Positions 426 through 34,339 of a stretch of 34,349 bases of DNA are shown here, in pieces. Positions within the stretch are counted from its first letter, which is position 1, and every line of letters begins with the position of its first letter. The stretch comes from a virus. The notes below the pieces were generated by a model. The model was not told the origin of the DNA. It did no database searches and saw only the letters and a list, made by a program, of their open reading frames with translations. The position numbers were made by a program, and so were the translations under genes. The stretch spans positions 1 through 34,349 of IMG/VR virus record IMGVR_UViG_3300026519_000040. The stretch is one strand, 5' to 3'.

Positions 426-445
426 AACAAGTCAAGAATGTCAGT
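426..445 (+). repeat. end-type 20-bp element, left copy
   Basis: AACAAGTCAAGAATGTCAGT differs at one base from the inner right-end copy at 34298-34317 (minus strand). The two lie in inverted orientation, as expected for transposase-binding sites of a Mu-like phage. The similarity extends outward into AAAA on the 5' side. Confidence 0.7.
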
Positions 446-498
446 AGCGTTATTTATACAGTCATACATGGAGTATATTTCTTAGGTTGATCTGTGAT

Positions 499-1089
499 TT
501 ATCTGGAAATATGTAAACGTTTTCTGCCTAAGATTTGAAAGTCTAGTTGTGAGGTTTGGGGATTGTGATTTTCTGTACCGTATTTGCTGTTGTCTGAAAT
601 GATGTCTATAGAGCCATCTAGCTTAAAGTGTAGGCTTTTGACTTTAAGCATGCCATCGATGCGAAGCGCATAGATGCCGTCTTCTGTACTTCGGCTAGCT
701 TCTGGTGGTGTGACAATGATGTAGTCGCCATTTCGTAACGTTGGTTCCATCGAATCACCCATTATCTCTACAGCCGTTGCCTTCTCGTCTGCTACAAACG
801 GGAAAAGTGTAGGGCTCAAAGAGAGAATGGCAGTCGAGGGCGTAAAATTGTAGATGCCCTCTCCTGCACCTGCTTGTAGCTTTAAGAGTGGAACGCCTAT
901 GACATTGTCTAGACGACTCTTTTGGTGTTCGAAGTCATCCATTATAATCACCCACTTCTCAGGTATACGGTCCCTCTTAATCCAGCTGTCTATATTGTTT
1001 TTACTTGTACTTAGCAAAGCAGCCAGTTCTTTATCGGATGCAATTCCAAATTTCTTTTTAAATCTATTTAAGTCCACTCTAGCCGACAT
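499..1089 (-). CDS. CI/LexA-type phage repressor, S24 peptidase fold
   Basis: 196 residues. The N-terminal ~60 residues form a helix-turn-helix (FGIASDKELAALLSTSKNNI). The C-terminal half is a LexA/CI-like S24 peptidase with GDSMEPT placing the nucleophile at Ser113 and VKSL placing the general base near Lys151. QAGAGEG (72-78) supplies Ala-Gly bonds of the type cleaved in RecA-stimulated autoproteolysis. The ATG at 1089 is chosen because GGGGG precedes it, and an upstream ATG at 1143 would fall inside the operator/promoter. Transcribed leftward, back to back with the early operon. Its expected role is lysogeny maintenance by binding the GTAC array. Mu's own repressor is not of this type, so DNA damage could plausibly induce this phage. 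Confidence 0.9.
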   Translation of the reverse strand: MSARVDLNRFKKKFGIASDKELAALLSTSKNNIDSWIKRDRIPEKWVIIMDDFEHQKSRLDNVIGVPLLKLQAGAGEGIYNFTPSTAILSLSPTLFPFVADEKATAVEIMGDSMEPTLRNGDYIIVTPPEASRSTEDGIYALRIDGMLKVKSLHFKLDGSIDIISDNSKYGTENHNPQTSQLDFQILGRKRLHISR

Positions 1090-1113
1090 GTTTCCCCCTA
1101 CAAAAACAAAAAT

Positions 1114-1160
1114 AGTACAAAAATAGTACAAATGCCTTGACAATGTACTATTTTTGTACT
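1114..1160. promoter_or_regulatory. repressor operator array: 17-bp perfect inverted repeat with four GTAC cores
   Basis: AGTACAAAAATAGTACA at 1114-1130 is the exact reverse complement of TGTACTATTTTTGTACT at 1144-1160, with a 13-base spacer. GTAC cores lie at 1115, 1126, 1145 and 1156, spaced 11, 19 and 11 bp, so they sit on about the same helix face. The array lies immediately upstream of the repressor start and overlaps the -35/-10 spacer of the rightward promoter. It is the obvious site for mutual control of repressor and early genes. Confidence 0.85.
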
Positions 1161-1165
1161 ACAAT
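1137..1165 (+). promoter_or_regulatory. rightward early promoter (sigma70 type)
   Basis: TTGACA at 1137-1142, a 17-base spacer, then TACAAT at 1160-1165: a perfect -35 and a one-mismatch -10. The spacer is almost entirely operator arm, so a bound repressor would block RNA polymerase. The start point is expected near 1172 and would drive the regulator and transposase genes. Confidence 0.85.
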
Positions 1166-1171
1166 ACACTC

Positions 1172-1214
1172 ATCAAACAATTACACTTTAAGAAGTGTAT
1201 CGAAATTGTTTGAT
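1172..1214 (+). other. large nested dyad at the expected 5' end of the early transcript
   Basis: ATCAAACAATT (1172-1182) pairs perfectly with AATTGTTTGAT (1204-1214). Inside it ACACTT (1183-1188) pairs with AAGTGT (1193-1198) around a TAAG loop, leaving a five-base bulge on the 3' side. It begins about at the predicted transcription start. It could be a 5'-protecting stem, an attenuator, or an additional operator for the Ner-like protein. Confidence 0.7.
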
Positions 1215-1218
1215 AAAA

Positions 1219-1238
1219 AACAAGGCTTAAATGTCAGT
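1219..1238 (+). repeat. end-type 20-bp element, early-leader copy
   Basis: AACAAGGCTTAAATGTCAGT matches the right-end copy except for a three-base block in the middle (17/20), with matching A-rich sequence before it. It lies just downstream of the early promoter dyad, about 1.1 kb from the left terminus. Mu carries its transposition enhancer at a comparable place, although Mu's enhancer sequence is unrelated to its end sites. Confidence 0.6.
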
Positions 1239-1240
1239 CT

Positions 1241-1549
1241 TGGGTTATTTAACATTCCTCATCTGTGCGTCCGCAGATGACACTCTGACAGCAGGGTGCG
1301 TAAGAACTATAAGACTTTTGGTTGTGGAGAGCAGCAGGCAAAAGATAACGTACAGGTGAGCTCTTTGCTGTTTTAGTATTTCCCTTCCTCTTTTATACTT
1401 TTGACAGTATAAGGGCTCTCTTGTGTGTTAAAAATAAAAAAATGTGTACCAAAGCTACCAAAGCTACCACAGTACCAAATATAGACGCTGTTAGCGTTGT
1501 TTGCTTGTGGTAGATGAAATAGGTAGCGTTACCACACGAAAGGAAAAAA
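1241..1549 (+). other. early leader without a gene; hairpins and tandem repeats
   Basis: No supported gene. Two stem-loops are visible: TCATCTG/CAGATGA at 1259-1280, with an 8-base loop, and a TTATACT/AGTATAA stem lying within about 1395-1415. A tandem array of TACCAAAGC-type units follows at 1447-1480. TTTGCTTGTGGTAG at 1500-1513 recurs exactly at 18598-18611, and GCGTTACCACAC at 1526-1537 recurs at 198-209. A small regulatory RNA or attenuated leader is possible but not shown. Confidence 0.55.
1447..1480 (+). repeat. four tandem TACCA(A/C)A units
   Basis: TACCAAAGC, TACCAAAGC, TACCACAG and TACCAAAT run head to tail. The same unit is arrayed at 12728-12821 and 18554-18636 and appears inverted at 371-390. 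Function unknown. Confidence 0.75.
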
Positions 1550-1657
1550 ATGCTTGGAAATATAGTGATAGTGATAGTGAGCGGGGTAGCGTGGTTTGTT
1601 TTTGGATTTGCCTTTGCGAAGTTTTTATACTGGATTCAGACTTATATGTCTCAGTAA
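1550..1657 (+). CDS. small single-span membrane protein (35 aa)
   Basis: ATG at 1550 follows AAAGGAA with good spacing, and the frame stays open to TAA at 1655-1657. Nearly the whole protein is hydrophobic (IVIVIVSGVAWFVFGFAF), ending in a short polar tail, so it is a predicted one-pass inner-membrane peptide. It is the first gene of the early transcript after the long leader. Its last seven bases overlap the convergent minus-strand gene. No family recognised; a superinfection-exclusion or membrane-sensing role is only a guess. Confidence 0.55.
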   Translation: MLGNIVIVIVSGVAWFVFGFAFAKFLYWIQTYMSQ

Positions 1658-1899
1658 GGACATCGATTGGCGTCTTTGACGCAGATATTATTTACTGAAT
1701 CAAGATGTGGACATGTGTTTGATGCACCAAGGAGAGGTAATTGGGTTTGTTTGAACGATATTTTTCTACCTCGATTGTCGGTATGTACTTGGCAGTATAG
1801 TCGTGTCGTTGCGGCATATGTACTCCATACTCCAGCAGAGAAACCAAGACCAAACAAAGAGAGATTAATCCCGATTGATACCAAATCAAAAACATCCAT
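1651..1899 (-). CDS. small membrane protein with cysteine-rich tail, unknown
   Basis: 82 residues starting at the ATG at 1899, preceded by AAAGGAAAAC, a good ribosome site. Residues ~1-35 are largely hydrophobic (SIGINLSLFGLGFSAGVWS) and predicted to span the membrane. The tail carries CPHLDSVNNICVKDANRCPY, whose cysteines could bind a metal or form disulfides. It runs leftward between the repressor and the rightward early genes, against the early transcript, which suggests lysogenic expression and a moron-like role. The opposite-strand ORF here has no comparable start signal and was rejected. Confidence 0.6.
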   Translation of the reverse strand: MDVFDLVSIGINLSLFGLGFSAGVWSTYAATTRLYCQVHTDNRGRKISFKQTQLPLLGASNTCPHLDSVNNICVKDANRCPY

Positions 1900-1973
1900 A
1901 GTGTTTTCCTTTTTGATGAAAGTATAACACAAAGGAAAACAGTGTGGAAGACATTATATAGAAAGGAGGAACG

Positions 1974-2186
1974 GTGAGAGATTTACGAGAAAGATTTGAC
2001 AGTAGAGGGTTTGGCGTCACGAAATATGCACGTGTGCACAAGGTGAAACAGCCAACTCTGTCGCGTGTTTTGAATGGAGAGTTGACTGGAAAGAATAAGT
2101 CTGGTGGTGAAGTGAGAAAGATTATCTCACAGCTTAAAAAAGACAAGGTGTGGGTCGGAACTTTGCCTTGGGAGGTGTCGCCATGA
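1974..2186 (+). CDS. Ner/Cro-like small DNA-binding regulator
   Basis: 70 residues from a GTG start at 1974 preceded by AAAGGAGG. A helix-turn-helix is visible as GFGVTKYARVHKVKQPTLSRVL, with basic residues around it. Position directly before the transposase matches ner in Mu, which represses the early and repressor promoters once replication is under way. The stop overlaps the transposase start (ATGA at 2183), implying translational coupling. Orthology to Mu Ner is inferred from place and size; the sequence itself is only generically Cro/XRE-like. Confidence 0.7.
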   Translation: MRDLRERFDSRGFGVTKYARVHKVKQPTLSRVLNGELTGKNKSGGEVRKIISQLKKDKVWVGTLPWEVSP

Positions 2187-4165
2187 ATAGCGTTGACTTA
2201 GCTGAAAAAACAAAGATTACACAACAAACAATTTCTAAAAAAACAAACAAAGCCATTGCACAAGATATGAGCGTCATCGAAATAGATAAGAAACGTTATG
2301 CCTTTTCGTGTACAAATGGTCGTTATGACTATGAGCAGATACCAGATGTGATAACCGTGGAGGCTAAGAAGACGACTGAGAATACAAAGTATCTCAGTTT
2401 TACGGTAGAAAAAAGAAAGGAGGCAGAGCTAAGACTTGCCATGGTGCAAGAGTATGAAAAGCGTGGCGACATGAGCTACACAACGTTTATAGAGATGCTG
2501 CCAAGACGGTTTAAGTCTTTGCGTTTTTCAGAACGGCAGTTTATGCGGTGGGTGAAGTTGGTACGAGAGTGTCCCGCAAACGAAACACCGCTTGTGTACC
2601 TGGTGGATAAGCGAGGTGTACGCACGAAACAAAAAGGTGTCACCGAGGATATGGGGAAGATGATTGAAAAGATGATTTTGGAAAAGCCTCATCGCAAAGC
2701 AAAGCGTATTTATGAGTATTTATCAAAAGAGTTTGACGATTTACCGAGCTATGAAACGGTACGCAAGTGGTTAGCAGCGTGGAAATCAAAAGAGTTTTTG
2801 GTTTATGCGTTTGCTAAAAATCCAGACAAAGCCAAAGGGATGTATAAGCCTGCTGGTGGGAGCATGTCGGAGGCTATTAACTTTTGTAATGAAGTGTGGG
2901 AGTTAGATGCAACGCCCGCGGATGTTATCTGTAGTGATGGTAAGAGGTATGTACTCAGTGCAGCTATAGATGTTTATAGTCGTCGCGTGATTGTAGTCGT
3001 AGAAGAGTCTGCAAACTACACGACACTGGCTAAAGTCATGCGTAAGGGGATAAAGCGTTTCGGCGTCCCTGAAAATGTGAAAATCGATAACGGGAAGGAT
3101 TACACCAGTAACAACTTTGCCTACACTTGCTCAAGACTGAAAATTAATCAAATTTTATGTCCGCCTTACAGTGGTGAGTATAAACCACATATTGAGCGTT
3201 TTTTCGGGACGCTTAGTCGTGAACTGTTCGAAGAACTCGATGGCTATATAGGGCACAGCGTGTCAGATCGTGAAGCCTTACAAAGTCAGCAAATGTTTTC
3301 TGACAAGCTTGAGAGCATCAGAATGTGGCGAGAGCGTTACAAAGATGGTAACGAATTTGCGAAACGTTTTGCGAGTAAAAAAGAAAATGCAGGCCTAAAC
3401 GTCGGTATACCGCTTTCTAAAGCCGAGTTACAACTTTGGATAGACAAGTGGATTGTGATGTATGAAAACAGAAGGCACAGCAGCTTGAAGATGTCACCGA
3501 TGAGTCGATGGAATCGCGAGTTTAGTGCATCTCGAAAGGTAGAAGATGAACGTATGCTTGATATTTTGCTGGGGATTTCTACCACGAGAAGCATCCGAAA
3601 GAAAGGCATCGAGTGGCATGGCGTGACGTATTGGTCAGAAATATTTGGAGACATGGTTGGGCAAAAAGTATGGGTGCTCAGCGACGACGATCTTTCCAAG
3701 ATTTACGTCTATGACTTAGATATGCAGTATGTGTGTACAGGCGTGAATCCCGAGTATGAAAATGTGAGCCGTGCCTCCTTCTTGCAGGCCAATAAAAAAT
3801 GGAGTAAAAAACTGCATAAAACCATAAAAGCTTTGGAGGAGTTACGCGCAGAAGCACCAGAACGTATGATGGAACGTATTAACGGTGAAGTGGGTGTTGA
3901 CCTTCGTTCTGACATTCAAAAAGAAGCCACACCAGTGCAACTAGAGAGTGCTGAGATGTTGGCCGTAGAGGCTGAGAGTATGAAGCCTAAAGTAGAAGCA
4001 GAAGTACTTCCCAGTGGAAGACCACAGTTTACACAGGTCTTTGACCGTTTTGTATGGGATCTTGAACATGACAGGGTGGACAAGAGTACGGAAAAAATGA
4101 AAACAAAATATGAACAAATCTGGCATATGGCAGAAAAAGAGTATGAAAGGAGAAAGTGTAGTTAG
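2183..4165 (+). CDS. MuA-type DDE transposase
   Basis: 660 residues; the start at 2183 is taken from GGAGG and the ATGA overlap rather than an upstream in-frame codon. Residues ~1-190 hold DNA-binding helices. The rve/RNase H core carries Asp242 (VWELDATPAD), Asp302 (KIDNGKDYTS) and Glu338 (KPHIERFFGT), so the catalytic triad is complete. A Mu-type C-terminal beta-barrel follows around 455-525, then a charged tail that may contact the partner ATPase. Asp302 and Glu338 are separated by 35 residues, close to TnsB/Tn552 and much shorter than MuA. It should catalyse strand transfer for integration and replicative transposition. Confidence 0.95.
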   Translation: MNSVDLAEKTKITQQTISKKTNKAIAQDMSVIEIDKKRYAFSCTNGRYDYEQIPDVITVEAKKTTENTKYLSFTVEKRKEAELRLAMVQEYEKRGDMSYTTFIEMLPRRFKSLRFSERQFMRWVKLVRECPANETPLVYLVDKRGVRTKQKGVTEDMGKMIEKMILEKPHRKAKRIYEYLSKEFDDLPSYETVRKWLAAWKSKEFLVYAFAKNPDKAKGMYKPAGGSMSEAINFCNEVWELDATPADVICSDGKRYVLSAAIDVYSRRVIVVVEESANYTTLAKVMRKGIKRFGVPENVKIDNGKDYTSNNFAYTCSRLKINQILCPPYSGEYKPHIERFFGTLSRELFEELDGYIGHSVSDREALQSQQMFSDKLESIRMWRERYKDGNEFAKRFASKKENAGLNVGIPLSKAELQLWIDKWIVMYENRRHSSLKMSPMSRWNREFSASRKVEDERMLDILLGISTTRSIRKKGIEWHGVTYWSEIFGDMVGQKVWVLSDDDLSKIYVYDLDMQYVCTGVNPEYENVSRASFLQANKKWSKKLHKTIKALEELRAEAPERMMERINGEVGVDLRSDIQKEATPVQLESAEMLAVEAESMKPKVEAEVLPSGRPQFTQVFDRFVWDLEHDRVDKSTEKMKTKYEQIWHMAEKEYERRKCS

Positions 4166-4247
4166 ACATGAGGTTATTTGGAGGATGCTTCGACATCCAC
4201 CAAAAAGGTTTGACAAACAATTTAAAATTTGAACGAAAGGAACAAAT

Positions 4248-4955
4248 ATGAAGGAAAAGTTTATCGAAACAGAGAATTATATCGCAATTCATGAGCTTCT
4301 TACAAGGCTTATAGAATTTCAGGAAATGGGTCAAGATATTTGTATGGGACTAGTGTATGGTGATTATGGCTTAGGAAAGTCTTTTTCACTTGAACGACTT
4401 GCGGCTGAGACGGGTGCGATTTTACTAAGGACAGACCAAACATGGACGGTTGCATCGGTGTTGCGTATATTGTGCGAAGAGATGGCGCTGGATAGCCGCG
4501 GTAAAAGTGCTGCACTTATGGAACGGGTTGTGTGGCATATGTTACGTGAGCCACGACCTATTATTATAGACGAGATAGATACGTTGCTTCCAGCCACAAA
4601 GTTTGCAGTCATGGAAATGTTCCGTGATATTCATGACAAGGCGCATCATGCCTTGCTGTTTGTAGGGATGCAAGGCGCAGAAGGGCGACTCAAATTGCAT
4701 CCTCATTTTTATTCTCGTATCGTGGGTAAAGTGAAGTTTAAGAGTATTTCACACGAAGACATCAAGAAGTTTTGTGAGCAATGCGAGGTGAAGATAGCAG
4801 ATGACCTGGTAGAGTACTTCTTGCGAAAGTATCCCAATTTGAGACGCATTAAAGTATTTATGTTGCGTATTGAATCATGGGCAGAAATGAATGACGTTGA
4901 CACTATGAACTTGAAACTTTTTAAAGACAGTGGGGTGGAATATGCGGATAAATAA
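4248..4955 (+). CDS. MuB/TniB-type AAA+ target-selection ATPase
   Basis: 235 residues. Walker A GDYGLGKS at 38-45, Walker B PIIIDEID near 104-111, a sensor-like LLFVGMQG at ~137-143 and an arginine in HFYSRIVG at ~153-160 define the AAA+ core. The family binds target DNA as ATP filaments, stimulates the transposase and gives target immunity. It is shorter than MuB (312 aa) and lacks an N-terminal helix-turn-helix, which may be supplied by the winged-helix protein encoded just downstream. GAAAGGAAC precedes the ATG; 82 non-coding bases separate it from the transposase. Confidence 0.9.
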   Translation: MKEKFIETENYIAIHELLTRLIEFQEMGQDICMGLVYGDYGLGKSFSLERLAAETGAILLRTDQTWTVASVLRILCEEMALDSRGKSAALMERVVWHMLREPRPIIIDEIDTLLPATKFAVMEMFRDIHDKAHHALLFVGMQGAEGRLKLHPHFYSRIVGKVKFKSISHEDIKKFCEQCEVKIADDLVEYFLRKYPNLRRIKVFMLRIESWAEMNDVDTMNLKLFKDSGVEYADK

Positions 4956-5505
4956 GAAGAAGATGCGAAAAGGAAAGAGACAGAAAGCATGGCAGTATAT
5001 GCGTCGGAATCCTATGTTTTCTACCCAAGACATCCTGGTCTTGTTAGAAATGAGCCACAATAGTTTACGGGTGTTTATACGACAACTTATGAATGACGGG
5101 TATCTCCGTAGAATCAGCGGTGGGAAAGAGTTTACTTCGCGTACCTATAAACTTATTAAAAATACGGGTGTTATCTGCCCTGTATGGGTGGAGAAGCAAG
5201 GCAAATTGTTTGATGTAAACACGCATAAGTTTGGTGTTAGAGATCCAACCTATGTGCCAAAAGTATGTAAGAAGATCGAGCATCGACCTGTTGACGCGGC
5301 TGATTATGATGCAGGGCGTGTGTTGCAAGTTTTAGAATCAGAACCTGAAGGACTCGATCTTTTAAGGTTGAGTGAACGAAGCGGTGTTTTAGGCGCCAGA
5401 TTTGCCACGGCATTATCCACTTTAGTAGATGATGGAATAGTCGAAGAAAGAGGACTTGAAAATGGCGTACCAGTCTTCAGACTGGAGGTGTGTCATGAAA
5501 CCTAA
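4942..5505 (+). CDS. double winged-helix protein, unknown role in transposition block
   Basis: 187 residues starting at ATG 4942 after GGGGTGG, inside the end of the ATPase gene, so translation is probably coupled. Two winged-helix-like units are visible: residues ~20-60 (MFSTQDILVLLEMSHNSLRV) and ~130-185 (LLRLSERSGVLGARFATALS, followed by a wing-like GLENGVPVF). The N-terminus is very basic (RINKKKMRKGKRQK). It is therefore likely to bind DNA. Placement beside a MuB-like protein lacking its usual DNA-binding head suggests a partner, but that is inference. Confidence 0.7.
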   Translation: MRINKKKMRKGKRQKAWQYMRRNPMFSTQDILVLLEMSHNSLRVFIRQLMNDGYLRRISGGKEFTSRTYKLIKNTGVICPVWVEKQGKLFDVNTHKFGVRDPTYVPKVCKKIEHRPVDAADYDAGRVLQVLESEPEGLDLLRLSERSGVLGARFATALSTLVDDGIVEERGLENGVPVFRLEVCHET

Positions 5506-5689
5506 TCTTGAATCTTGCATACGACGTGCACGCATAGGGTATCTACCAAGTAAGTTGCCTTATGTCATCAAGACGTATGAGGCACCTAAAAAAGAGAGCT
5601 TGAGGGTTCGTCCACGAGGGGTAAGACGCGTGGTCTATTTAGACAAAATAGTTCTGCAAATATGGAGGTCGGGTGATGATAATGTTTGA
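5495..5689 (+). CDS. small basic hypothetical protein
   Basis: 64 residues, start ATG 5495 after GGAGGTG within the last codons of the previous gene. Rich in Arg/Lys (RPRGVRRVVYLDK) with no domain I recognise. The 11-base overlap upstream and 14-base overlap downstream place it in one translationally coupled early run. A nucleic-acid-binding role is possible from charge alone. Confidence 0.6.
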   Translation: MKPNLESCIRRARIGYLPSKLPYVIKTYEAPKKESLRVRPRGVRRVVYLDKIVLQIWRSGDDNV

Positions 5690-5798
5690 AATATGGATAG
5701 GTGTGGTGACTTTGTCTGTGGTTCTTCTGCTGATTAGAGATGAATTGCTGGTAGCTCACCGTTGTAGAAAGAAAGCCAAGATACGGAGGTACAAATGA
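5676..5798 (+). CDS. tiny single-span membrane protein (40 aa)
   Basis: ATG at 5676 lies 7 bases after GGAGG and inside the end of the previous gene; TGA at 5796-5798. The first half is one hydrophobic span (FEIWIGVVTLSVVLLLI), the second a positively charged cytoplasmic tail (RCRKKAKIRRYK). The next gene begins in the ATGA overlap at 5795. Function unknown. Confidence 0.55.
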   Translation: MIMFEIWIGVVTLSVVLLLIRDELLVAHRCRKKAKIRRYK

Positions 5799-5902
5799 AA
5801 AGAGTCATACGAACGACTACAGCTGGACTGCTTGCCTTGTTGTTGTCAGGTTTTTTTGCAGGTGCATCGATAGCGATGTTGATACAGATGATGATTGATT
5901 AG
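5795..5902 (+). CDS. tiny membrane protein (35 aa)
   Basis: ATG at 5795 overlaps the previous stop and is preceded by GGAGG at good distance. MKRVIRTTTAGLLALLLSGF then a small-residue hydrophobic stretch gives a single predicted span or uncleaved signal. Two tiny membrane genes in tandem suggest a paired membrane function, for example exclusion or early lysis control, but nothing in the sequence proves it. Confidence 0.5.
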   Translation: MKRVIRTTTAGLLALLLSGFFAGASIAMLIQMMID

Positions 5903-5910
5903 GAGATTGT

Positions 5911-6027
5911 ATGCGATTTATAGGATGGAAAGATGGTGTAGAGCGTGTGCTGCAGACAAACAATGCACTAAGACTAATGCAGTTTTCAGGTTTGATGGAC
6001 AGGGTGGAATATGTTTCAGGAGACTGA
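5911..6027 (+). CDS. tiny hypothetical protein (38 aa)
   Basis: AGGAGA sits just before ATG 5911; the frame closes at TGA 6025-6027 after overlapping the next gene by 17 bases. Soluble, with no recognisable motif. Kept because of its ribosome site and because the overlapping arrangement matches its neighbours; could be only a translational coupler. Confidence 0.45.
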   Translation: MRFIGWKDGVERVLQTNNALRLMQFSGLMDRVEYVSGD

Positions 6028-6223
6028 TTTTTACACATTGTGTCAAACCTTTAGACAAGATGCAAAAGGTGACTGGTACATGACGCATACACAAATTTCA
6101 AGAGTACTGATGATGACGAGAAAAGAGGTGTGTCACTTGTTAGATAGTGGCGCTTTGGAAGGATACCACATACAGCAGGTGGCATCTTATATCATAAAAA
6201 AGGATTTACATGGAACAGATTAG
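6011..6223 (+). CDS. small helix-turn-helix protein (excisionase/MerR-like fold)
   Basis: 70 residues, ATG 6011 after GGGTGGAAT. After a short N-terminal stretch the sequence THTQISRVLMMTRKEVCHLL then DSGALEGYHIQQVASYI follows the pattern of excisionase-type winged helices: helix, helix, beta hairpin, helix. The first unit of the next gene has the same layout (TAAAQRLGCSVEEIEQKVEA, then GVL). Overlaps that gene by 14 bases. Probably a DNA-binding regulator or architectural protein of the early block. Confidence 0.65.
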   Translation: MFQETDFYTLCQTFRQDAKGDWYMTHTQISRVLMMTRKEVCHLLDSGALEGYHIQQVASYIIKKDLHGTD

Positions 6224-6857
6224 CTACACAGCAGCCGCACAAAGATTAGGCTGCAGTGTCGAAGAGATAGAGCAAAAAGTAGAAGCAGGTGTTTTAAGAG
6301 AGTACAAGCCTCGCATGGTGAGTAAAGAAGCAGTGTATGCACTCAATGGCCTACAGCTAGACGGCAAGCAGTCGAGTAAGGAGAAAACAAAGAAACTAGA
6401 TGAAGAGAATAAGATGACTATGACTCTACAAGCAACAGCAGCCTTTCTAGATATAGATACGGAGGATGTTCAGAAACTTATAGACACGAATATGATTCAG
6501 ACAATCGCAGATGACAATGGCATGTCGAGACCAAGCATAAAGTCTGTTAAAAGTTACAAGGATACTTATATACCACTGGATGAACCGCCTAAGAGTTTCC
6601 AGGACGAAAAGAAGAAAGAAGTCAAAAAGGCAGAGCCGTTTGATTTAGATGCGGTCATGCGTGATCTTTTTGATGGCATGCAGTGCTTTTCTAAAGAGAC
6701 GAGAGACGCGCTGCTTGCAGGGTCACAAGATACAAGCAACTTATATAGCAGCCAAGAGATGAAGCAAATTGTCAATATGTCTATGAAGATGGGTAGATTA
6801 CAGGTTTATGAGAGCATGGATACATTTTCTAGAAGACAAAGAAAGGAGAAAAAATGA
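6210..6857 (+). CDS. protein with two tandem excisionase-like helix-turn-helix units
   Basis: 215 residues. Unit one, residues ~4-45, contains TAAAQRLGCSVEEIEQKVEA and VSKEAVYAL. After a charged linker, unit two at ~70-115 contains QATAAFLDIDTEDVQKLIDT and RPSIKSVKSY. The remainder is helical and charged (residues ~120-215) with no domain recognised. With the preceding gene this makes three similar HTH units in a row. The ATGA overlap at 6854 couples it to the DUF3164 gene. Likely DNA binding, target unknown. Confidence 0.65.
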   Translation: MEQISYTAAAQRLGCSVEEIEQKVEAGVLREYKPRMVSKEAVYALNGLQLDGKQSSKEKTKKLDEENKMTMTLQATAAFLDIDTEDVQKLIDTNMIQTIADDNGMSRPSIKSVKSYKDTYIPLDEPPKSFQDEKKKEVKKAEPFDLDAVMRDLFDGMQCFSKETRDALLAGSQDTSNLYSSQEMKQIVNMSMKMGRLQVYESMDTFSRRQRKEKK

Positions 6858-7492
6858 ACACACGAAAAGATGAGTACTGGATTAACGCGAAGGGTGAAGA
6901 CGTGCATATAGGCAATATCACAGAGCCTGACAAGTTAAAGAACGAGCTGGTTGTTAAAATAATTGCCCAGGTGAAACAAAAGCAATCTGAACTTGCATTT
7001 TTCAAGTCACAGATCAAGCAGGATATACTGGAATACATCGACATGCTACGTGATGTCTATCGCATGGACCCTTTAAGTCGTAGTAAAAAAGGGAACTTCG
7101 AATTGGTGAGTTATGATGGTACTCTCAAGGTGCAAATAGGCATACAAGACAGTATCACATTTGACGAAAAGATTACACTGGCCAAAGAGAAGATAGATGC
7201 CTTTTTAAAAGAACAGACCAAAGACGCTGCACCGATTGTGCATACATTGGTGATGGAAGCGTTTGAAGTGGATAAGAAAGGAAAACTTTCCGCTCAGAAT
7301 GTCTTAAAACTTCGTACATTAAAAGTGGAGCATGCTGAGTGGAAAGAGGCGATGGATATCATCGGAGACAGCATAACCATAGTCTCTTCGAAGGAAAACA
7401 TACGTTTTTATGAGCGTATTGGAGATGAGGGAAAGTGGACGTTGGTTACGCTTGATTTTTCTGCGTTGGAGGTGGAACATAATGGGATATAA
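6854..7492 (+). CDS. DUF3164 family early phage protein
   Basis: 212 residues matching the layout of DUF3164, a conserved family of Mu-like phages. The N-terminal KDEYWINAKGEDVH is followed by a long helical region and then GNFELVSYDGTLKVQIGIQD, with repeated Phe/Lys-rich helices after it. The biochemical function of the family is not established. It occupies the usual position between the transposition genes and GemA. Start is fixed by GGAG and the ATGA overlap with the HTH gene. Confidence 0.8.
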   Translation: MNTRKDEYWINAKGEDVHIGNITEPDKLKNELVVKIIAQVKQKQSELAFFKSQIKQDILEYIDMLRDVYRMDPLSRSKKGNFELVSYDGTLKVQIGIQDSITFDEKITLAKEKIDAFLKEQTKDAAPIVHTLVMEAFEVDKKGKLSAQNVLKLRTLKVEHAEWKEAMDIIGDSITIVSSKENIRFYERIGDEGKWTLVTLDFSALEVEHNGI

Positions 7493-27322: not shown

Positions 27323-28437
27323 ATTATGGCATCAATGGAAGCATCTCGGTAGAAGCTGCTAGACCGATCACTGTAGAGAGCACCACACCTATTGCGCTAG
27401 TAGGGACTAGTGATGTAGGTACTGCAGGACTGCAGTTCTTTTCAAATGCGGATTTGGCACTTGAATATGTCAATGCATCGACTACAGGTACTTTAAAAAG
27501 TGCTTTACGGCTTATTTCTGATCAGGGCGTATTTTGTCCTATTATCTTGGGTGTTGTGCCCTATGCTATCGATGTGAAAGCAGAAGTGCTTGCAACGCTT
27601 GACCTACTTAAAAATGCAGAAGCATCCGTAGGGTATCGTCCTGATATTATCATCGCACCTGAACATAGTTTTGATGTAGATATCGCCGCTAAGATAGATG
27701 CAGTTGCATCGAGGTTGTGGGCTACAGGAATACTAGACAATTTAGCGGCTGACGAAACAAGTGCTTTGGCATTTGCTGCGAACTTTGGATCGCGTCACTT
27801 GCTCATTTATGGTCCTCATGTAAAATATTATGATACGACGTCTTCATCAACGGTGTTGTTGCCAGCGAGTGCTGCCATCGCAGGAATGATAGCAAGGACA
27901 GATGGGGAAGTGCCTTTTGGGTTTGCAGACTCGGTGAGTAACCGTGTCGTCAAAGGCATCTCTGGAACAGATAGAATCATTGATTATGCTGATGGACAAG
28001 ACAGCGAGGCTAGAAGACTTAGAAACGCAGGCGTAGGTTCAGTCGTAGCAGACATCGGTTGGCGCACCTATGGTGGCGAAACAACGGATATTGATCCTAT
28101 ATGGCAGGCACTAGAGCGCGTACGAACATTTTATAAAGCTTTGCGTGCAGTGATGAAAGCCAGTAAGTGGGCTAGAGACAGAAGAGCTAATGAGTTAGTG
28201 TATATACGTGACAGTATTGATGCGTTTATGCGTGAACTCAGAGGTAACAATGTCGCTATAGGGTTTGAAATTTATTTTGATATGGAAAAAAACACATTGG
28301 CTACGGTCACAGCTGGGAAATTTTATCTTACTGTTAAATGGCAAAACATGCCTTTGATTAGAGAGCTTAATATCGAAATGATTTACACAGATCAGTATGG
28401 TGAAGTACTGTTAAATTACATTAATGGAGGTAACTAA
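27319..28437 (+). CDS. tail sheath protein (P2 FI/Mu gpL type)
   Basis: 372 residues. TTPIALVGTSDVGTAG, ADLALEYVNASTTGTLKSAL, PDIIIAPEHSFDVD, LWATGILDNLAAD, YGPHVKYYDTTSSSTVLLPA and the C-terminal RRLRNAGVGSVVADIGWRTY are characteristic of contractile sheath proteins. Start follows AAGGATAATAA and overlaps the previous gene. Confidence 0.93.
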   Translation: MNYGINGSISVEAARPITVESTTPIALVGTSDVGTAGLQFFSNADLALEYVNASTTGTLKSALRLISDQGVFCPIILGVVPYAIDVKAEVLATLDLLKNAEASVGYRPDIIIAPEHSFDVDIAAKIDAVASRLWATGILDNLAADETSALAFAANFGSRHLLIYGPHVKYYDTTSSSTVLLPASAAIAGMIARTDGEVPFGFADSVSNRVVKGISGTDRIIDYADGQDSEARRLRNAGVGSVVADIGWRTYGGETTDIDPIWQALERVRTFYKALRAVMKASKWARDRRANELVYIRDSIDAFMRELRGNNVAIGFEIYFDMEKNTLATVTAGKFYLTVKWQNMPLIRELNIEMIYTDQYGEVLLNYINGGN

Positions 28438-28438
28438 G

Positions 28439-28939
28439 ATGCCAGTAGATATCAAAAACCCACGTACGCTGATAGGCTCAGCTGTATACATGGAAGATAA
28501 CAGATACATAGGAACAGTAGAAGAGATAGAACTTCCAGATTTGGAGTTTGGCACTGTTGAAACAGGTGCAGGCATGAAGCGAGAGCAAGTTGTGCCTGTT
28601 TTGGAGCCGATGAAAGCACGTGTGAAAGTGTCAGGGGACAATTATCCTATGGTGAAGTTGTTTGCGAAACAAGTTACTGAGAATGCGACAGTGTTTATAC
28701 GTAACGACACAACAACTGCTAGACATGATAGTTTGGATGTTACACTCAAGGGTAATGGGAAAATGCTCAAGGCGCCTATACCTGGTGCGGGAGAAAAGAT
28801 GGAAACGGAAATAGAGATCAATGTCGATGTGTACATCTACATGATCAATGGGCAAAAGTATTATGAAATAGATGCTTTAAACAATGTGCTTGTCATCGAT
28901 GGTAAAGATTTGATGGCTGAGACTAGAGCAAATCTGTAA
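28439..28939 (+). CDS. major tail tube protein (P2 FII type)
   Basis: 166 residues from ATG 28439, GGAGGTAAC just upstream. IGSAVYMEDNRYIGTVEEIE, LPDLEFGTVETGAGMKRE and DVTLKGNGKMLKAPIPGAG plus a C-terminal YEIDALNNVLVIDGKD match the FII tube family, the inner tube of the contractile tail. Confidence 0.92.
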   Translation: MPVDIKNPRTLIGSAVYMEDNRYIGTVEEIELPDLEFGTVETGAGMKREQVVPVLEPMKARVKVSGDNYPMVKLFAKQVTENATVFIRNDTTTARHDSLDVTLKGNGKMLKAPIPGAGEKMETEIEINVDVYIYMINGQKYYEIDALNNVLVIDGKDLMAETRANL

Positions 28940-28948
28940 GGAGATAGC

Positions 28949-29209
28949 ATGGCAAAAGTAACTGTAACATTTGAAAGAAAAATAGAAGTAGGCGGTAAGG
29001 TTTTTGAAGGAGATATGGAGGTTGAGAAGCCAAACACTGGTGTCTTAATGGATGCAGGCAGTATAGCAGACCCAAGTAATCAAGTTGCTTTTACTGTAGC
29101 CATTATGGGTGTAGTCCTTGATGTGCCTTTAAACACAATGCGAAGTCTCGAGATTGAAGACTTTGCGGTATTAAAGCGGACGCTGGAGCCAATACTCCCA
29201 AAGATGTAG
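28949..29209 (+). CDS. tail assembly chaperone E
   Basis: 86 residues after AAGGAGATAGC. KVTVTFERKIEVGGKVFEGD and DFAVLKRTLEPIL give the short P2 gpE-like layout. The frame ends at TAG 29207-29209, right after a slippery CCCAAAG. A -1 shift there continues into E'. E and E' guide tape-measure folding and tube length. Confidence 0.85.
   Translation: MAKVTVTFERKIEVGGKVFEGDMEVEKPNTGVLMDAGSIADPSNQVAFTVAIMGVVLDVPLNTMRSLEIEDFAVLKRTLEPILPKM
29197..29203 (+). other. -1 ribosomal frameshift heptamer C CCA AAG
   Basis: In the E frame the codons are CCA and AAG preceded by C, exactly X XXY YYZ. Sliding back one base reads CCC AAA and carries the ribosome past the TAG six bases downstream. Programmed -1 shifts at this gene position are well known in P2/Mu/lambda-type tails. 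Confidence 0.85.
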
Positions 29210-29358
29210 CCCTTCTTAGTTACGAAGGGATTTTGAATGCAGTGATGCATATGGCATCCGTACTGAGTTTTTCTTATCTGGATCAACGCCAAATGGAAAT
29301 CAATGTTTGGCTTTACTACGTACAAAAAACAATACAGGCTATGGAGGCTAGAAAATGA
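29203..29358 (+). CDS. E' extension, expressed as E+E' fusion by -1 frameshift
   Basis: From 29203 the -1 frame is open to TGA 29356-29358 (51 codons): DVALLSYEGILNAVMHMASV, then YLDQRQMEINVWLYYVQKTI and AMEARK. This is the usual helical E' tail. The fused product would be about 136 residues. No separate start with a ribosome site is visible. Its stop overlaps the tape-measure ATG. Confidence 0.82.
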   Translation, partial: DVALLSYEGILNAVMHMASVLSFSYLDQRQMEINVWLYYVQKTIQAMEARK

Positions 29359-31043
29359 GTGCAACAATCGGACTTGGCATTGCTATTACGCTTGCTGACA
29401 TGTTTAGCCCTAAACTCAAACAAGCAGGGAAGGGCTTAGGCAGTTTCAATGCAAAACTAGCAGCTACTTCTACAGCTGCAGTAGGCATCGGGAAAAGTTT
29501 AACAGCAGGACTTGGAAAATTTTATGATGCTTTTGGTGAAACAGCGCAAAAACAAGGTGACTTAATGTCACTTGGTGTTGATGCTAAGGGTATGCAGGAC
29601 ATCACGAAAAAAGGATTAAAATTTGCCAATACCTGGTCTAATGTTGTAGCAAAAGATTTCATCGGGGCAGCGTATGATATAAAGTCTGGCATATCATCAC
29701 TGACTGATGATGGTGTGGGTGAAATGACACGTTATGCGTTACTTACTGGAAAAGCAACGAAGTCTTCTTCGGAAACAATGAGTAAATCATTTGCTCTGGG
29801 ATATGGTATATTTCGAGATGAGTTTAAAGATGATTTTGACTTTGGTAAAAAGTTTTCTGCCTCATTTGCGGCGACTGTACAACTATTCAGAACGGATGGT
29901 GAAGACTTAGCACGCGGTATTTCAAATCTTGGTGCAGTAGCTAAAAGTTTTGGGGTGTCACTTTCCGAAGAATTGTCTGTACTTGGAATGTCTAAAGGTG
30001 CGTTTGATTCTGCTGCCGAAGGTGCTACAGGTTATAAAGCCTTTTTGATGGGTGCTACGAAAGCACAAAAGGGGTTAGGCCTTAGTTTCGTTGACAAAAA
30101 AGGACAGCTTCTTTCGATAGCAGATATCTTAGACAAAATAAAAAAGAAATTTGGAAAACTAGATGCAAAAGAAATAGGCATCTTAAAAAAAGAATTTGGC
30201 AGTGATGAAGCAGTTAAAATTATTTTGGCACTTATCGATAAAACGGATCAACTAAGGGAAAGTCAAAAAAAGTTAAATGATGCACAAAATAGGGGCCTCG
30301 ACTATACAACAAAGATGGCACAAGCGAGGGAGTATGGTCAAGAGGCCAAACTGTTAGGTGACCAGATGAGTTCTTTAGCATATATTTTCGGAGAAAGGCT
30401 TTCACCTGCCATGGGGTGGGTTGCAACAAAAATGGGTAGCCTCGTAACCTGGACGCAAGACTTTGTAAGCGAAAATAAAGAGCTTACAGGCAACATAGCT
30501 ACAGGTTTAGTCGTATTTGCAGGACTGGCTACAGTACTGGGAACTATCGGTATCGCTGTGGCTGGTATCACATTTGGGATGAAGGCTCTTGGGATTGCTA
30601 GCATGGCTGCTTTTGCACCTTTGCTCATCAGCGTGGGACTTGTGGCGCTAGCCGCATACGCTGTCATAGATAACTGGGAACTTGTGAGTACCTTTTGGTC
30701 AGGTATGTGGAAAGATTTTGTCAAGGGAGTCAACGAAGCGATAGAGCTTGTGACGACGCTTGGAGGTTTACTTCCAAATGGTGAAGACCAGGATGTTTTG
30801 GCGATGAAAAATGGATATATAGGGAATCCTGAAGACGCGGATACTATGAGTAAACAGGTTGATTTTAATGCTATCCCTTCTTTGCCACCTAGTAGTAATT
30901 CTGTAGTCAATAATACGACAGTAAATGAGGCACCTGTGAATGTTTACGTGAAAGGAAATACTATCAAAGAACTGACAGATGGTATCAAGAAAGAACTAGA
31001 TTTGATAGCAAGGGACAAAGAGTCTCGAAGGATCACGTTATGA
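29355..31043 (+). CDS. tape measure protein
   Basis: 562 residues. Helical, with ADMFSPKLKQAGKGLGSFNA at the start, a TMP_core-like region (LARGISNLGAVAKSFGVSL, ATGYKAFLMGATKAQKGLG) and a hydrophobic stretch near residues 375-435 (GLVVFAGLATVLGTIGIAVA, ISVGLVALAAYAVIDNWELV). It sets tail length; a shorter protein than Mu's (about 640 aa) predicts a slightly shorter tail. Start overlaps E' stop (ATGA). Confidence 0.9.
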   Translation: MSATIGLGIAITLADMFSPKLKQAGKGLGSFNAKLAATSTAAVGIGKSLTAGLGKFYDAFGETAQKQGDLMSLGVDAKGMQDITKKGLKFANTWSNVVAKDFIGAAYDIKSGISSLTDDGVGEMTRYALLTGKATKSSSETMSKSFALGYGIFRDEFKDDFDFGKKFSASFAATVQLFRTDGEDLARGISNLGAVAKSFGVSLSEELSVLGMSKGAFDSAAEGATGYKAFLMGATKAQKGLGLSFVDKKGQLLSIADILDKIKKKFGKLDAKEIGILKKEFGSDEAVKIILALIDKTDQLRESQKKLNDAQNRGLDYTTKMAQAREYGQEAKLLGDQMSSLAYIFGERLSPAMGWVATKMGSLVTWTQDFVSENKELTGNIATGLVVFAGLATVLGTIGIAVAGITFGMKALGIASMAAFAPLLISVGLVALAAYAVIDNWELVSTFWSGMWKDFVKGVNEAIELVTTLGGLLPNGEDQDVLAMKNGYIGNPEDADTMSKQVDFNAIPSLPPSSNSVVNNTTVNEAPVNVYVKGNTIKELTDGIKKELDLIARDKESRRITL

Positions 31044-31471
31044 GGATTATGGCTATTCTTGGTGCATTTGTATTTTCTGCACAGGACAAAGAGTTTCACA
31101 AGATGAACAAAACTACTCGATATCACTTTGCCAAAATCGATAAAGTCCATACAGGGACAGAATACCATGCAATCGGTGGCAGAGATGAAACAAGGGTGAT
31201 GAGTGGTCGCATCAATGCTTTGCAAAGTGGCAGTAACCCTTTAGACGCTTTGGAGATAATGGCTGAGTTGAAATATGCGTATCCTTTGTTTTTAGGTACA
31301 GGCAGATACTTGGGTCGCTTTATTATCGAAGATATTAGAACAGTTGAAGAGAAGATCTTAGATAATGGCGCAGCCATACAGGTAGACTTTACCATTACGC
31401 TACAGCGTACCGATGGCGGATTACTCTCATGGGTGCAGTCTCTTGGGCTTGATTTAGGCGGTATCTTATGA
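31040..31471 (+). CDS. tail protein U (P2 gpU family)
   Basis: 143 residues. FVFSAQDKEFHKMNKTTRYH, MSGRINALQSGSNPLDALEI, and LGRFIIEDIRTVEEKILDNG with SLGLDLGG at the end follow the gpU pattern, a tail-terminator/baseplate hub component. Overlaps neighbours by four bases. Confidence 0.88.
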   Translation: MRIMAILGAFVFSAQDKEFHKMNKTTRYHFAKIDKVHTGTEYHAIGGRDETRVMSGRINALQSGSNPLDALEIMAELKYAYPLFLGTGRYLGRFIIEDIRTVEEKILDNGAAIQVDFTITLQRTDGGLLSWVQSLGLDLGGIL

Positions 31472-31677
31472 CATATGTTGCCAAAGACTTTGAGAGGCTT
31501 GAGGAAATATTTTATAGATTTCATGGGGTTACAGATGAAAGGTACCGTGAATTTTGCGAAAAGAATGTACCTCTGTTAAAAAAAGATTTGCTAGATGCTG
31601 GAGACGTAGTTACGCTTTTAGATAGTCTTCCTAAGACTAATGTGAGTTCTGTACAAAGAGTATCACTATGGGACTAA
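31468..31677 (+). CDS. tail protein X (LysM-like, P2 gpX)
   Basis: 69 residues. YVAKDFERLEEIFYRFHGVT, ENKN-like FCEKNVPLLKKDLLDAGDVV and a final TLLDSLP recall the gpX family, a LysM-like module often with the D protein. Ten-base overlap with the D gene. Confidence 0.75.
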   Translation: MTYVAKDFERLEEIFYRFHGVTDERYREFCEKNVPLLKKDLLDAGDVVTLLDSLPKTNVSSVQRVSLWD

Positions 31678-32621
31678 CAGGTAGCGTTGAGCGTCCACAG
31701 GTAATGCTACTAAAAGACGGTATAGATATCGGACAGAGATTAGCAGAACATTTGGTATCTGTTGAATATATAGATGCCATTGACAATGAAGTTGATGGCC
31801 TTGTGCTTACATTTTCTAAAATGTTTTTAGCACCGAAATCTGGAGACAAACTTACTGTGTCAATAGGATTTGGTGCGATCCTGGACCATATCGGTGAGTT
31901 TTATGTGTCAGGATGGACAGAGCGCCCTCATGATGGCATTATGATGGTGCGTCTCACGCCGGTAGACTTTTCGAAAGCATTGAAAGAGCGCCGTACTGAT
32001 GGATATGACAATGTTACGTTAGATAAGTTGTTAGGCATTATTGCTAAAAGGCACACATTACTTGTAAAGAATGAATTAAATGATGTAGCTTATACCTACA
32101 AGGCGCAAACAAATGAAAGTGATTTAAGATTTCTGCATCGTCTGGCACAAGAGCATTATGCAACGTTTGCTATTAAAAACGGAACGATTATTTTTAAACC
32201 CAAAAGCCTTAATGAAGACAGGACGTCATTACCTCAAGTGTTCGTGAGTGTATCGGATATATCGGATTTGAGTATAGAGTATCAAGACAAAACGCATTAT
32301 GTCTCAGGGATAGCGAAATTTAGAGATCATTCCACAAATAAAACAATTTCAGTACAAGAAGGAGAAGGAAAACCACAGCTTATAATCGAGGGATCATTTA
32401 AAAATATCGCAGAAGCAAAGGCACGTTTACAGGCTGCGTTAAACAAGGAAAACTCTGGAAGAGTACATGGCTATTTTGTGGCAACGACACAAGCAGTTAT
32501 CGCCGGTGCGATACTCACTATTCAGCTAGAAGACAGAGTAGAGAGTGATTTACAAATAACAGAAGTGCGGCATACGATTGATCACAATGGATATACAAAA
32601 GACGTGACATTTAGTCGATAA
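31668..32621 (+). CDS. late control/baseplate hub protein D (P2 gpD type)
   Basis: 317 residues. AEHLVSVEYIDAIDNEVDGL, FYVSGWTERPHDGIMMVRLT, SDLRFLHRLAQEHYATFAIK and the C-terminal ESDLQITEVRHTID are typical of the GPD family that joins tube, hub and spike. Last structural gene before the lysis block. Confidence 0.92.
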   Translation: MGLTGSVERPQVMLLKDGIDIGQRLAEHLVSVEYIDAIDNEVDGLVLTFSKMFLAPKSGDKLTVSIGFGAILDHIGEFYVSGWTERPHDGIMMVRLTPVDFSKALKERRTDGYDNVTLDKLLGIIAKRHTLLVKNELNDVAYTYKAQTNESDLRFLHRLAQEHYATFAIKNGTIIFKPKSLNEDRTSLPQVFVSVSDISDLSIEYQDKTHYVSGIAKFRDHSTNKTISVQEGEGKPQLIIEGSFKNIAEAKARLQAALNKENSGRVHGYFVATTQAVIAGAILTIQLEDRVESDLQITEVRHTIDHNGYTKDVTFSR

Positions 32622-32630
32622 GGAGAAGAT

Positions 32631-33032
32631 ATGGATATAGGAACAGCAACGGTAACAGCAGCGACAAAAGTAGGAGCAATCTCGGCATTGATTACAAGTA
32701 TTGCGACAGATACAGATCTAATCATGGTGTGTGTTGTCGGTGTGGTAGGAGGGATAGCATATGTTGCTAAGGAATTTGTGGTAGAGGAATTTAAGGAACA
32801 ACCGATTCGCACAGCTATTAATATGTTAGTGTCTCTTTTGATGGCTATGTCGTTAACAGGTTTCGTGTTCTATGCTGGGAAAGAAGGATTTAACCAACAT
32901 ATCAAAGATGTGGGTACTTATGTTTGGATATTTCTTGCTTTTATGTGTGCTATCAACTACAAACGTGTTGTGTCGTTTTTATCGAATTTAATAGCGATAT
33001 TTCTGTCAAGAAAGGCAAAAGGAGATGACTAA
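32631..33032 (+). CDS. holin-like multi-span membrane protein
   Basis: 133 residues after AAGGAGAAG. Three hydrophobic stretches are visible: LIMVCVVGVVGGIAYVA, MLVSLLMAMSLTGFVFYAG and YVWIFLAFMCAINY, with a basic C-terminal tail. Arrangement resembles class I/III phage holins of the lysis-S type. It should release the M15 endolysin encoded at 7482-7901. Antiholin role for the following 28-residue protein is possible. Confidence 0.7.
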   Translation: MDIGTATVTAATKVGAISALITSIATDTDLIMVCVVGVVGGIAYVAKEFVVEEFKEQPIRTAINMLVSLLMAMSLTGFVFYAGKEGFNQHIKDVGTYVWIFLAFMCAINYKRVVSFLSNLIAIFLSRKAKGDD

Positions 33033-33033
33033 G

Positions 33034-33120
33034 ATGAAACATTTTATACAAGAAGTTTTGATAGCAGCTTGCCTTGCAGGTGGTGTATACTTATATTTGT
33101 ATTTTATTAATTTAGTGTAG
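33034..33120 (+). CDS. tiny membrane protein (28 aa) in the lysis block
   Basis: ATG 33034 follows AAGGAGATGACTAAG, and TAG closes at 33118-33120. FIQEVLIAACLAGGVYLYLY is a single predicted span. Between holin-like and lipoprotein genes, so it could tune holin triggering. Too short for family assignment. Confidence 0.5.
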   Translation: MKHFIQEVLIAACLAGGVYLYLYFINLV

Positions 33121-33126
33121 ATCATA

Positions 33127-33663
33127 ATGAAATATATTTATTTATTTATTGTTAACATCCTAATCTTAACTGGATGTAACGACACGCAATATGGCGATAG
33201 GAACAATACAATATATCAAGATGCAAATAGTAATACAGTTGTGCCTCCAGATCATAATAGAACAGAGCTTCAGTATGTAGACACGCATATTCCAACTATC
33301 AAGTACAGGGATAGAAATGTGACTATTTATGAACCACAAGAAGAATGCCTGGTGAGAGAGTTTGACGCTACATTGTGGGGACGCATCGTGTATGAAGATG
33401 GGAAACCATATGCACGCGGTATAGTAAAGGTCAGTAGTGTATCATGGCAAAATTATGCGTTATCAGATGACAATGGGACATTTAGAGTCGGTGTTGTTGG
33501 AGACGAGAGGTTTTTTTTCTCAGCAGCTTCTCCGTTTGGGGATTTCGTGTTTTATGTATATGATAATACCCTTGTGGTGCCTGCCTATACGATTGGTCAA
33601 GGCTATGAATGCTCTTTTCTGCAAGACATTGTAGACTGTGAAAAATACCCTACAAAGGAATAA
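33127..33663 (+). CDS. lipoprotein with carboxypeptidase-regulatory-like (Ig-like) domain
   Basis: 178 residues. MKYIYLFIVNILILTGC gives a lipobox with Cys17. A Asn/Asp-rich stretch leads to residues ~80-130 (LWGRIVYEDGKPYARGIVKV, DDNGTFRVGVVGDERFFF), the pattern of a CarboxypepD_reg-like beta sandwich. No strong ribosome site is visible before ATG 33127. Likely outer-membrane or periplasmic, perhaps for exclusion or lysis assistance. Confidence 0.65.
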   Translation: MKYIYLFIVNILILTGCNDTQYGDRNNTIYQDANSNTVVPPDHNRTELQYVDTHIPTIKYRDRNVTIYEPQEECLVREFDATLWGRIVYEDGKPYARGIVKVSSVSWQNYALSDDNGTFRVGVVGDERFFFSAASPFGDFVFYVYDNTLVVPAYTIGQGYECSFLQDIVDCEKYPTKE

Positions 33664-33665
33664 CT

Positions 33666-33980
33666 ATGTTAAGAGTAATATTATCTCTACTTCCATCGCT
33701 TCCTAAAGCTATATTTGCCCTCGTGCTATTAGGCAGTGTCGTATTTACTGTGGATAAGTTTTGTAATCAAGAAAAACGTGTTTTGAAGAAAACGGTTGCA
33801 CAATCTTTATTAGAAATACAAGGTAAAAACGTCAGTATCCGAAAATTAAACTCGGAAATAACACGCTTGAAAGAAGAGCATAAGCAGACTGCATTTGATA
33901 TGCTAATAAATTGCAAGCAAACACAAAGGATAATGTTTGAAGACCCTTATGTTGATCTTAATGCCACTCTATTTTTTTAG
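33666..33980 (+). CDS. inner-membrane spanin (Rz-like)
   Basis: 104 residues, ATG 33666 after AAAGGAATAACT. One N-terminal span (AIFALVLLGSVVFTVDKF) is followed by a helical, charged periplasmic region (LNSEITRLKEEHKQTAFDM). This is the i-spanin layout. It overlaps the following lipoprotein gene in another frame by 44 bases, as Rz and Rz1 do. Confidence 0.75.
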   Translation: MLRVILSLLPSLPKAIFALVLLGSVVFTVDKFCNQEKRVLKKTVAQSLLEIQGKNVSIRKLNSEITRLKEEHKQTAFDMLINCKQTQRIMFEDPYVDLNATLFF

Positions 33981-34302
33981 TGGTTGTACTCAGAAAAATC
34001 CACCGAAGCCTATCACCCTATATAAGAGTATGCCTGTGGCGAAACTCAAGTATTGGCAGCATAAGGTCGCAATTCCTGCTAAAGCTCAAATTGACGCACC
34101 AATAACCATTAAAGAAGCATATAGCTTACCAGAGAAAGATAGAGCTCGGTATGTTGCTGTAAATGCGACACAGCTGGTAAACGCATCTAAGAAGTCACAG
34201 GAGCTTAGAAATACAATAAAGAAAGCTTTAGGAGGCCTCTCTTTTTACGAGTACCAGGTTAGGGTTTTTAATAAACTTTATACGAAAAATATAAGACACT
34301 GA
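33937..34302 (+). CDS. outer-membrane spanin lipoprotein (Rz1-like)
   Basis: 121 residues from TTG 33937, six bases after AAAGGA; an in-frame ATG at 33949 also works. The signal MKTLMLILMPLYFFSGC ends in a lipobox Cys17. PPKPITLYKSMPVAKLKYW and further Pro- and Lys-rich sequence follow. Overlap with the i-spanin gene and the lysis context support the role of bridging to the outer membrane to complete lysis. It is longer than lambda Rz1 and ends 47 bases from the window edge. Confidence 0.75.
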   Translation: MKTLMLILMPLYFFSGCTQKNPPKPITLYKSMPVAKLKYWQHKVAIPAKAQIDAPITIKEAYSLPEKDRARYVAVNATQLVNASKKSQELRNTIKKALGGLSFYEYQVRVFNKLYTKNIRH

Positions 34303-34339
34303 CATTCTTGCCTTGTTTTTATGACGTTTTTGGTTTGTT
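34298..34339 (-). repeat. two end-type 20-bp elements, 22 bp apart, at the right end
   Basis: Read on the minus strand, AACAAACCAAAAACGTCATA (34339-34320) is followed by AACAAGGCAAGAATGTCAGT (34317-34298). GTCA cores are 22 bp apart, two helical turns. Mu's R1 and R2 transposase sites are also adjacent 22-bp units. The inner one matches the left copy at 19/20, the outer at lower identity. Confidence 0.75.

Follow-up and report, generated by a model that had tools for sequence, protein, structure and literature searches.

Phage Mu and its relatives transpose from ends that carry several transposase sites each. In Mu, chromatin immunoprecipitation (ChIP) found MuA at the ends only (PMC2837660), and in the D3112-like Pseudomonas transposable phages, which have TGT termini, each end carries three putative transposase sites, with sites reported at the ends only (PMC4378225). 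The IMG/VR virus record IMGVR_UViG_3300026519_000040, analyzed here over its whole length of 34,349 nt (the window), is a Mu-like transposable phage from Campylobacterota with ordinary ends. It has in common with Mu the gene order repressor-ner-A-B...gemA-mor, a DDE transposase with the Mu C-terminal domain and an AAA+ partner, TG...CA termini, several predicted transposase sites at each end in a conserved architecture, and a leftward repressor beside the left end. Unlike Mu, the window and its lineage have leftward head genes and rightward tail genes, the right-end sites R1 and R2 22 bp apart, and recurrent internal copies of the 20-bp end element AACAAGGCAAGAATGTCAGT, which are the subject of this report.

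Our leading reading, held tentatively and drawn from sequence comparison, is that the 20-mer is the site of the phage's own Mu-type transposase and that the internal copies may act as beacons of self-immunity. The wider proposal, made with slightly more reserve, is that the lineage guards its genome from its own transposition through single transposase-recognition sites across the interior, some of them even set into portal and transposase codons. Target (cis) immunity of the Mu, Tn7, and Tn3 type is a close parallel, as transposase-bound sites there make nearby DNA a poor target. The window has the matching pair of genes: transposase A, with rve and Mu-transpos_C domains (2183..4165, +), the presumed site binder, and a TniB/MuB-like AAA+ ATPase of the B type (4248..4955, +), the presumed immunity partner, both assigned with Pfam and PHROGs (PF00665, PF09299, PF13401/PF05621, phrog_310, and phrog_296). 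The known immunity, however, acts from the ends of the element, whereas dispersed internal sites would deploy it in a new way.

End sites in the window and its relatives

Scanning both strands of the window with the 20-mer gave an exact match at 34298-34317(-) and matches with one, two, and three mismatches at 426-445(+), 21343-21362(+), and 1219-1238(+), respectively. These four copies had been listed in an earlier note on this DNA. They are far above chance, because shuffling the window gives an expectation of 0.01 matches with up to three mismatches, and the concern that equally good matches might be frequent in shuffled sequence thus falls away. A four-mismatch scan adds two copies at 16/20 each, 10884-10903(+) and 33817-33836(+), which the note lacked, as it did the outermost left site at 102-121. 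A further copy that it gave, 34320-34339(-), has six mismatches (14/20) and is not significant by itself, but it is real by its architecture, since it stands as R1, 22 bp outside R2, in a layout common to nine phages.

The closest relatives lie in Sulfurovum/Sulfurovaceae metagenome-assembled genomes: G001 (L091), with a transposase identity of 63%, and G002 (L092), with 59% identity and a prophage that appears to be split over two contigs. More distant relatives are in Campylobacterota genomes and viral contigs. Alignment-based searches found them; a single-protein search with the window transposase as the query gave zero relatives, and viral contigs scanned for the exact 20-mer gave zero matches. 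The nearest annotated phages, Shewanella phage MuM16-1 and Pseudoalteromonas phage HS6, have transposases with 28 to 36% identity. By the look of the end motif, or of the portal site for phages without ends in the sequence, we sorted the phages into group W (the window, G001, G002, L244, and L249), group T (G003, G192, G398, G515, G180, G178, G336, G183a, L250-L264, and others), and group F (G323, G430, L267-L275, and others).

The right end follows the rule TG-N4-[20-mer R1]-N2-[20-mer R2] in the window, G002, G003, G323, G430, G336, G515, G192, and G183a. R1 of the window is AACAAACCAAAAACGTCATA (34320..34339, -), and R2 is the 20/20 copy (34298..34317, -). The end sites have a core that approximates RAAATGTnAGT and an outer half that differs by group. 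Six phages (G192, G515, G323, G180, G398, and G178) have an inverted third right-end site, R3, about 53 bp further inward. The window has a possible inverted accessory site, TACAAGGTAAAAACGTCAGT, at 33817..33836 (+, 16/20), 481 bp inside R2; in G003, an inverted copy stands 466 bp inward of R2. At the left end, L1 (GGGGTAGGTGAAGTGTCAGG; 102..121, +) fits the rule TG-N4-[20-mer], and the sequence TGTGC...GGTAGGTGAAGTGTCA is common to the window and G002. An inverted site does exist where the earlier note had suspected a gapped reverse copy (176-195), but it is better placed at 174..193 (-). This site, L2 (AAACAACCTAAAATGTCATC), is kept in G001 and G002 and has an expectation of about 0 with a relatives-only profile. 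L3 (426..445, +, 19/20), beside the 3' end of the repressor gene, is likewise conserved in both. The L1-L2 core distance is 62 bp in the window and in G002, and the L2-L3 core distance is 263 bp in the window, 264 bp in G001, and 272 bp in G002.

Alignment with G002 and the TG-N4-[20-mer] rule delimit the phage genome to 96..34345, from the left terminus TGTGC at 96 to the right terminus GCACA ending at 34345. TG...CA termini are also found in relatives, with 5-bp target duplications in four prophages (G003, G336, G192, and G180). The duplication search could not fix the left ends of G323, G430, G398, G515, and G178; in divergent phages, the ungapped comparison of left and right ends and the duplication-only search gave noise, and the R1-R2 rule resolved the ends. 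Because of the R1-R2 tandem rule, the L1-L3 spacing, the TG...CA termini, and the duplications in relatives, the proposal that the opposed end copies are binding sites of a Mu-type transposase is well supported by analogy with Mu. Read by eye, a 6-bp repeat rather than a 5-bp one, ATTTAT, appears to flank the G002 termini (L119 about 6229 and G002r about 22143). In the window, bases 1-95 and 34346-34349 fall outside the termini, and the former look, from their open reading frame, as if they came from the 3' portion of a host gene. The flanks GAAGA (91-95) and TCAG (34346-34349) do not match, the right flank consisting of four bases only, and the contig may combine sequence from different insertions or from packaged host ends.

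Internal copies and selection on their DNA

Each phage was scanned in its interior with its own R2 or with a profile built solely from the ends of other phages. Both scans show interior sites that recur across the lineage, with an expectation near zero, at four places: (i) in the portal gene, 155 to 167 nt before its 3' end (more than 20 T and F phages); (ii) within the 5' portion of the transposase gene, in opposite orientation, where the T-group copies lie; (iii) between the DUF/AAA gene and mor (G178 13655, L250 3020, G180 13869, and window 10884); and (iv) at the gp37-V late divergence (window 21343, G002r 10482, L244 7524, L249 6860, and G192 28730). The window copy at place (iii), AACAGAGCAAGAGTGACAGT (10884..10903, +, 16/20), is at the 3' end of a weakly Mor-like activator gene (10591..10899, +; PF08765, E 0.0087, under the curated cut-off); it has an expectation of 0.10 with a profile of the relatives' ends only and like copies in G002. 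The copy at place (iv), AACAATGCAAGAACGTCAGT (21343..21362, +, 18/20), is at the head/tail divergence. The earlier note looked to positional conservation in relatives as support for the internal copies. This copy has it, with position and orientation kept in G002, L244, L249, and G192, but the copy at 1219 does not, having no counterpart in G001 and G002.

Two further observations concern these places. Three copies near mor are at gene 3' ends in the same frame (G002 L119:18612-18637, G002r:149-174, and window 10881-10906), encoding KTELECQ*, KTEQECQ*, and KTEQE*, as if a site-bearing gene end had been duplicated. A weaker recurrent match to the end sites lies early in terL, the terminase gene, some 184 to 214 nt into its 5' part (G515 20994, G178 19463, and L253 11517), and is possibly another internal site.

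Scans of Mu, MuM16-1, and the D3112-like phage Spike showed no comparable pattern: MuM16-1 has zero interior matches to its own right-end 20-mers, and Mu and Spike have one isolated three-mismatch place each. This result and the end-only MuA ChIP signal (PMC2837660) support the earlier view that copies in the interior fall outside the Mu model. Confinement of transposase sites to the ends, a property of Mu though not a strictly defining one, is not seen in this lineage. A search of open-licence papers turned up no account of transposase end-sites conserved in the interior of such phages. In seven other relatives (L011, L141, L140, G048, G128, G072, and G291), the window-type profile picked out no convincing internal site, but their own end motifs may differ, so absence does not follow. 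In the host genome of G192, prophage sites account for all six matches with zero to two mismatches, and the same holds for the five best matches in G398 and for all four with up to three mismatches in the 1.7 Mb of G002; some matches in G003 and G183 are on other contigs, which were left out of account. A host regulatory motif was rejected, since the best host-genome matches of the relatives fall in prophages, those on the other contigs of G003 and G183 aside.

Could the recurrence reflect chance, or similarity driven by the encoded protein, with no function? Some copies do lie in conserved peptides, LTFQKQ and TNISKA, and the copy at 1219 looks accidental. The same site DNA, however, encodes LTFQKQ in the portal gene and TNISKA, in another frame, in the transposase gene, and the portal site is conserved at synonymous positions. 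In the F phages it is the most synonymously conserved window of the gene, the windows ranked 1 to 4 of 361 all overlapping the site; in the T phages it is in the top 6%, with an overlapping window at rank 8 and the site window at rank 19 of 348. Where the fifth portal residue is Lys, its codon is AAG in 14/14 phages, although AAG makes up 12% of the Lys codons in those genes; as the phages are related, the naive product is not a P value. Together with the shuffle expectation of 0.01, this largely refutes the chance or protein-driven reading for all copies but 1219, and we regard it as very improbable overall. The portal-gene site is thus conserved as DNA.

The portal copies also resemble the ends of their own group, with log-odds in favor of T ends in 19/20 T phages and of F ends in 12/13 F phages. 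This likeness supports, but does not prove, a single binder for ends and interior, as the groups also differ by descent. It bears on the idea that the internal copies bind another protein with an end-like motif, such as a Mor-like activator, for which the weakly Mor-like gene adjoining the 10884 copy speaks. Because the internal copies track each group's own end motif and many are in coding sequence, we consider this improbable. Mor/C activator sites, which would lie ahead of middle or late promoters and were considered for 10884 and 21343, were rejected as a general explanation, since the internal sites seen most often fall within the portal and transposase genes.

The earlier note had suggested that the internal copies could be enhancers or switch points, and regulatory crosstalk is one rival to self-immunity. 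Here, transposase at internal sites would control the middle and late promoters as well as its own gene, coupling replication to late transcription. Window copies just after mor, the place of the Mu middle promoter, and in the late divergent region, with position and orientation conserved in relatives, are consistent with it, as are the T-group copies in the transposase gene's 5' part. The most conserved copy, however, is the portal-gene site, close to the 3' end of that gene and far from expected promoters; the late copy is inside gp37 in G183a, L251, and L250; and the early-leader copy is not conserved. The link to regulation is thus the weaker part of the earlier suggestion, as the 1219 copy lies in a leader hairpin and most of the relatives' copies are inside coding genes instead of control regions; as a whole we judge it unlikely, if worth keeping in mind.

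The early leader and neighboring genes

The 17/20 early-leader copy (1219..1238, +) overlaps a hairpin and is doubtful as a functional site. The aligned leader of G001 reads AAAAAACAAGCCCGCTTTAATAGCAGGCTTG, that of G002 is more different, and the TGTCA core is missing from both, while the CAAG...CTTG stem of this region is kept in G001 and the window. The copy thus either belongs to the window only or arose by accident from the leader hairpin. A role like that of the Mu internal activation sequence, a conserved enhancer in the operator region close to the left end, was rejected, as the core is absent from the aligned leaders.

Other features of this region are set down here as observations. 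A perfect hairpin, CATCTGTGCGTCCGCAGATG, at 1259-1284 is also kept in G001 and G002, where its changes are paired (L091 about 1407 and L092 about 7769), and a second, sequence-variable hairpin adjoins it; the first is possibly a leader RNA element of an antitermination-like kind. An Rfam search of the early leader gave nothing credible, the only matches being microRNA models that hit the operator palindrome far below the cut-off. Between the repressor and the early leader, an 18-bp perfect inverted repeat, TAGTACAAAAATAGTACA, at 1113-1161 is probably the repressor operator. TACCACA-type motifs cluster in the left end (127-136, 200-208, 359-368, and 412-421) and again at 1440-1540 (1464-1472, 1503-1512, and 1528-1536); the motif is the same in G001, and G002 has the variant CTACAACA.

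Besides the A/B pair and the weakly Mor-like protein, the window encodes a CI/S24 repressor, which reads leftward and adjoins the left end, a small helix-turn-helix protein, DUF3164, and GemA, with an Rz-like gene at the right end. A P22_AR_N/Ant-type antirepressor-like gene (11740-12552) is just downstream of the mor-like gene.

Proposed protection of the phage interior

In Mu, MuA at the ends clears MuB from nearby DNA and makes the flanking DNA a poor target. This cis-immunity, at its strongest within about 5 kb, is unable to span 37 kb, and Mu must therefore have a further mechanism (PMC2837660, PMC7350765). With its internal sites counted, no point in the window is more than 6.5 kb from a site, compared with 17 kb with the ends only; in other phages, the farthest distance is 6 to 11 kb with the internal sites. 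Dispersed self-immunity is therefore our leading model. The end sites (L1-L2-L3, R1-R2, and, in relatives, R3) would form the usual transpososome platform. At an internal site, transposase would stimulate the B ATPase to leave nearby DNA, as in Mu near its own ends, and the interior of the 34- to 40-kb phage would be a poor target while it transposes replicatively. Being mostly single and without the R1-R2 tandem, the internal sites would not be cut as ends. Their mixed coding and intergenic positions suit a function that needs proximity only. From the end architecture, the conserved positions of the internal copies, the DNA-level selection on the portal copy, and the likeness to own-group ends, all read from sequence, we infer that transposase binds the internal copies and that they function as beacons.

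Several points weigh against self-immunity. The spacing of the sites is even in the window without 1219 (P 0.02), but the mean P over the lineage is 0.42, and even spacing was dropped as proof of immunity. Gaps of about 20 kb between sites occur in G003, G515, G398, and G178, and the same orientation is retained at some sites, which immunity would not require. Moreover, the genome immunity of Mu for the most part depends neither on MuB nor on MuA sites in the interior (PMC7350765, PMC2837660), so a Mu-type phage does not need internal sites for it. Since the spacing is not significantly even, we treat self-immunity as a hypothesis and keep regulation and architecture open beside it.

The architectural alternative is that transposase multimers at internal sites loop the genome and help end synapsis or set a domain, comparable to the central gyrase site of Mu. 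Sites are near the genome middle in many phages, in the portal gene and the late region, and the Mu genome is reportedly organized as a domain. The number and place of the sites differ between groups, however, and we consider this alternative rather unlikely.

The means by which replicating transposable phages keep from inserting into their own genomes are not settled even in Mu, where cis-immunity falls short of the interior (PMC2837660, PMC7350765). Internal transposase sites under DNA-level selection offer a directly testable alternative mechanism. If self-immunity is the right reading, this lineage would have a sequence-encoded, dispersed form of it, where Mu uses another, still unexplained mechanism; if the sites are instead regulatory, the transposase would double as a genome-wide regulator.

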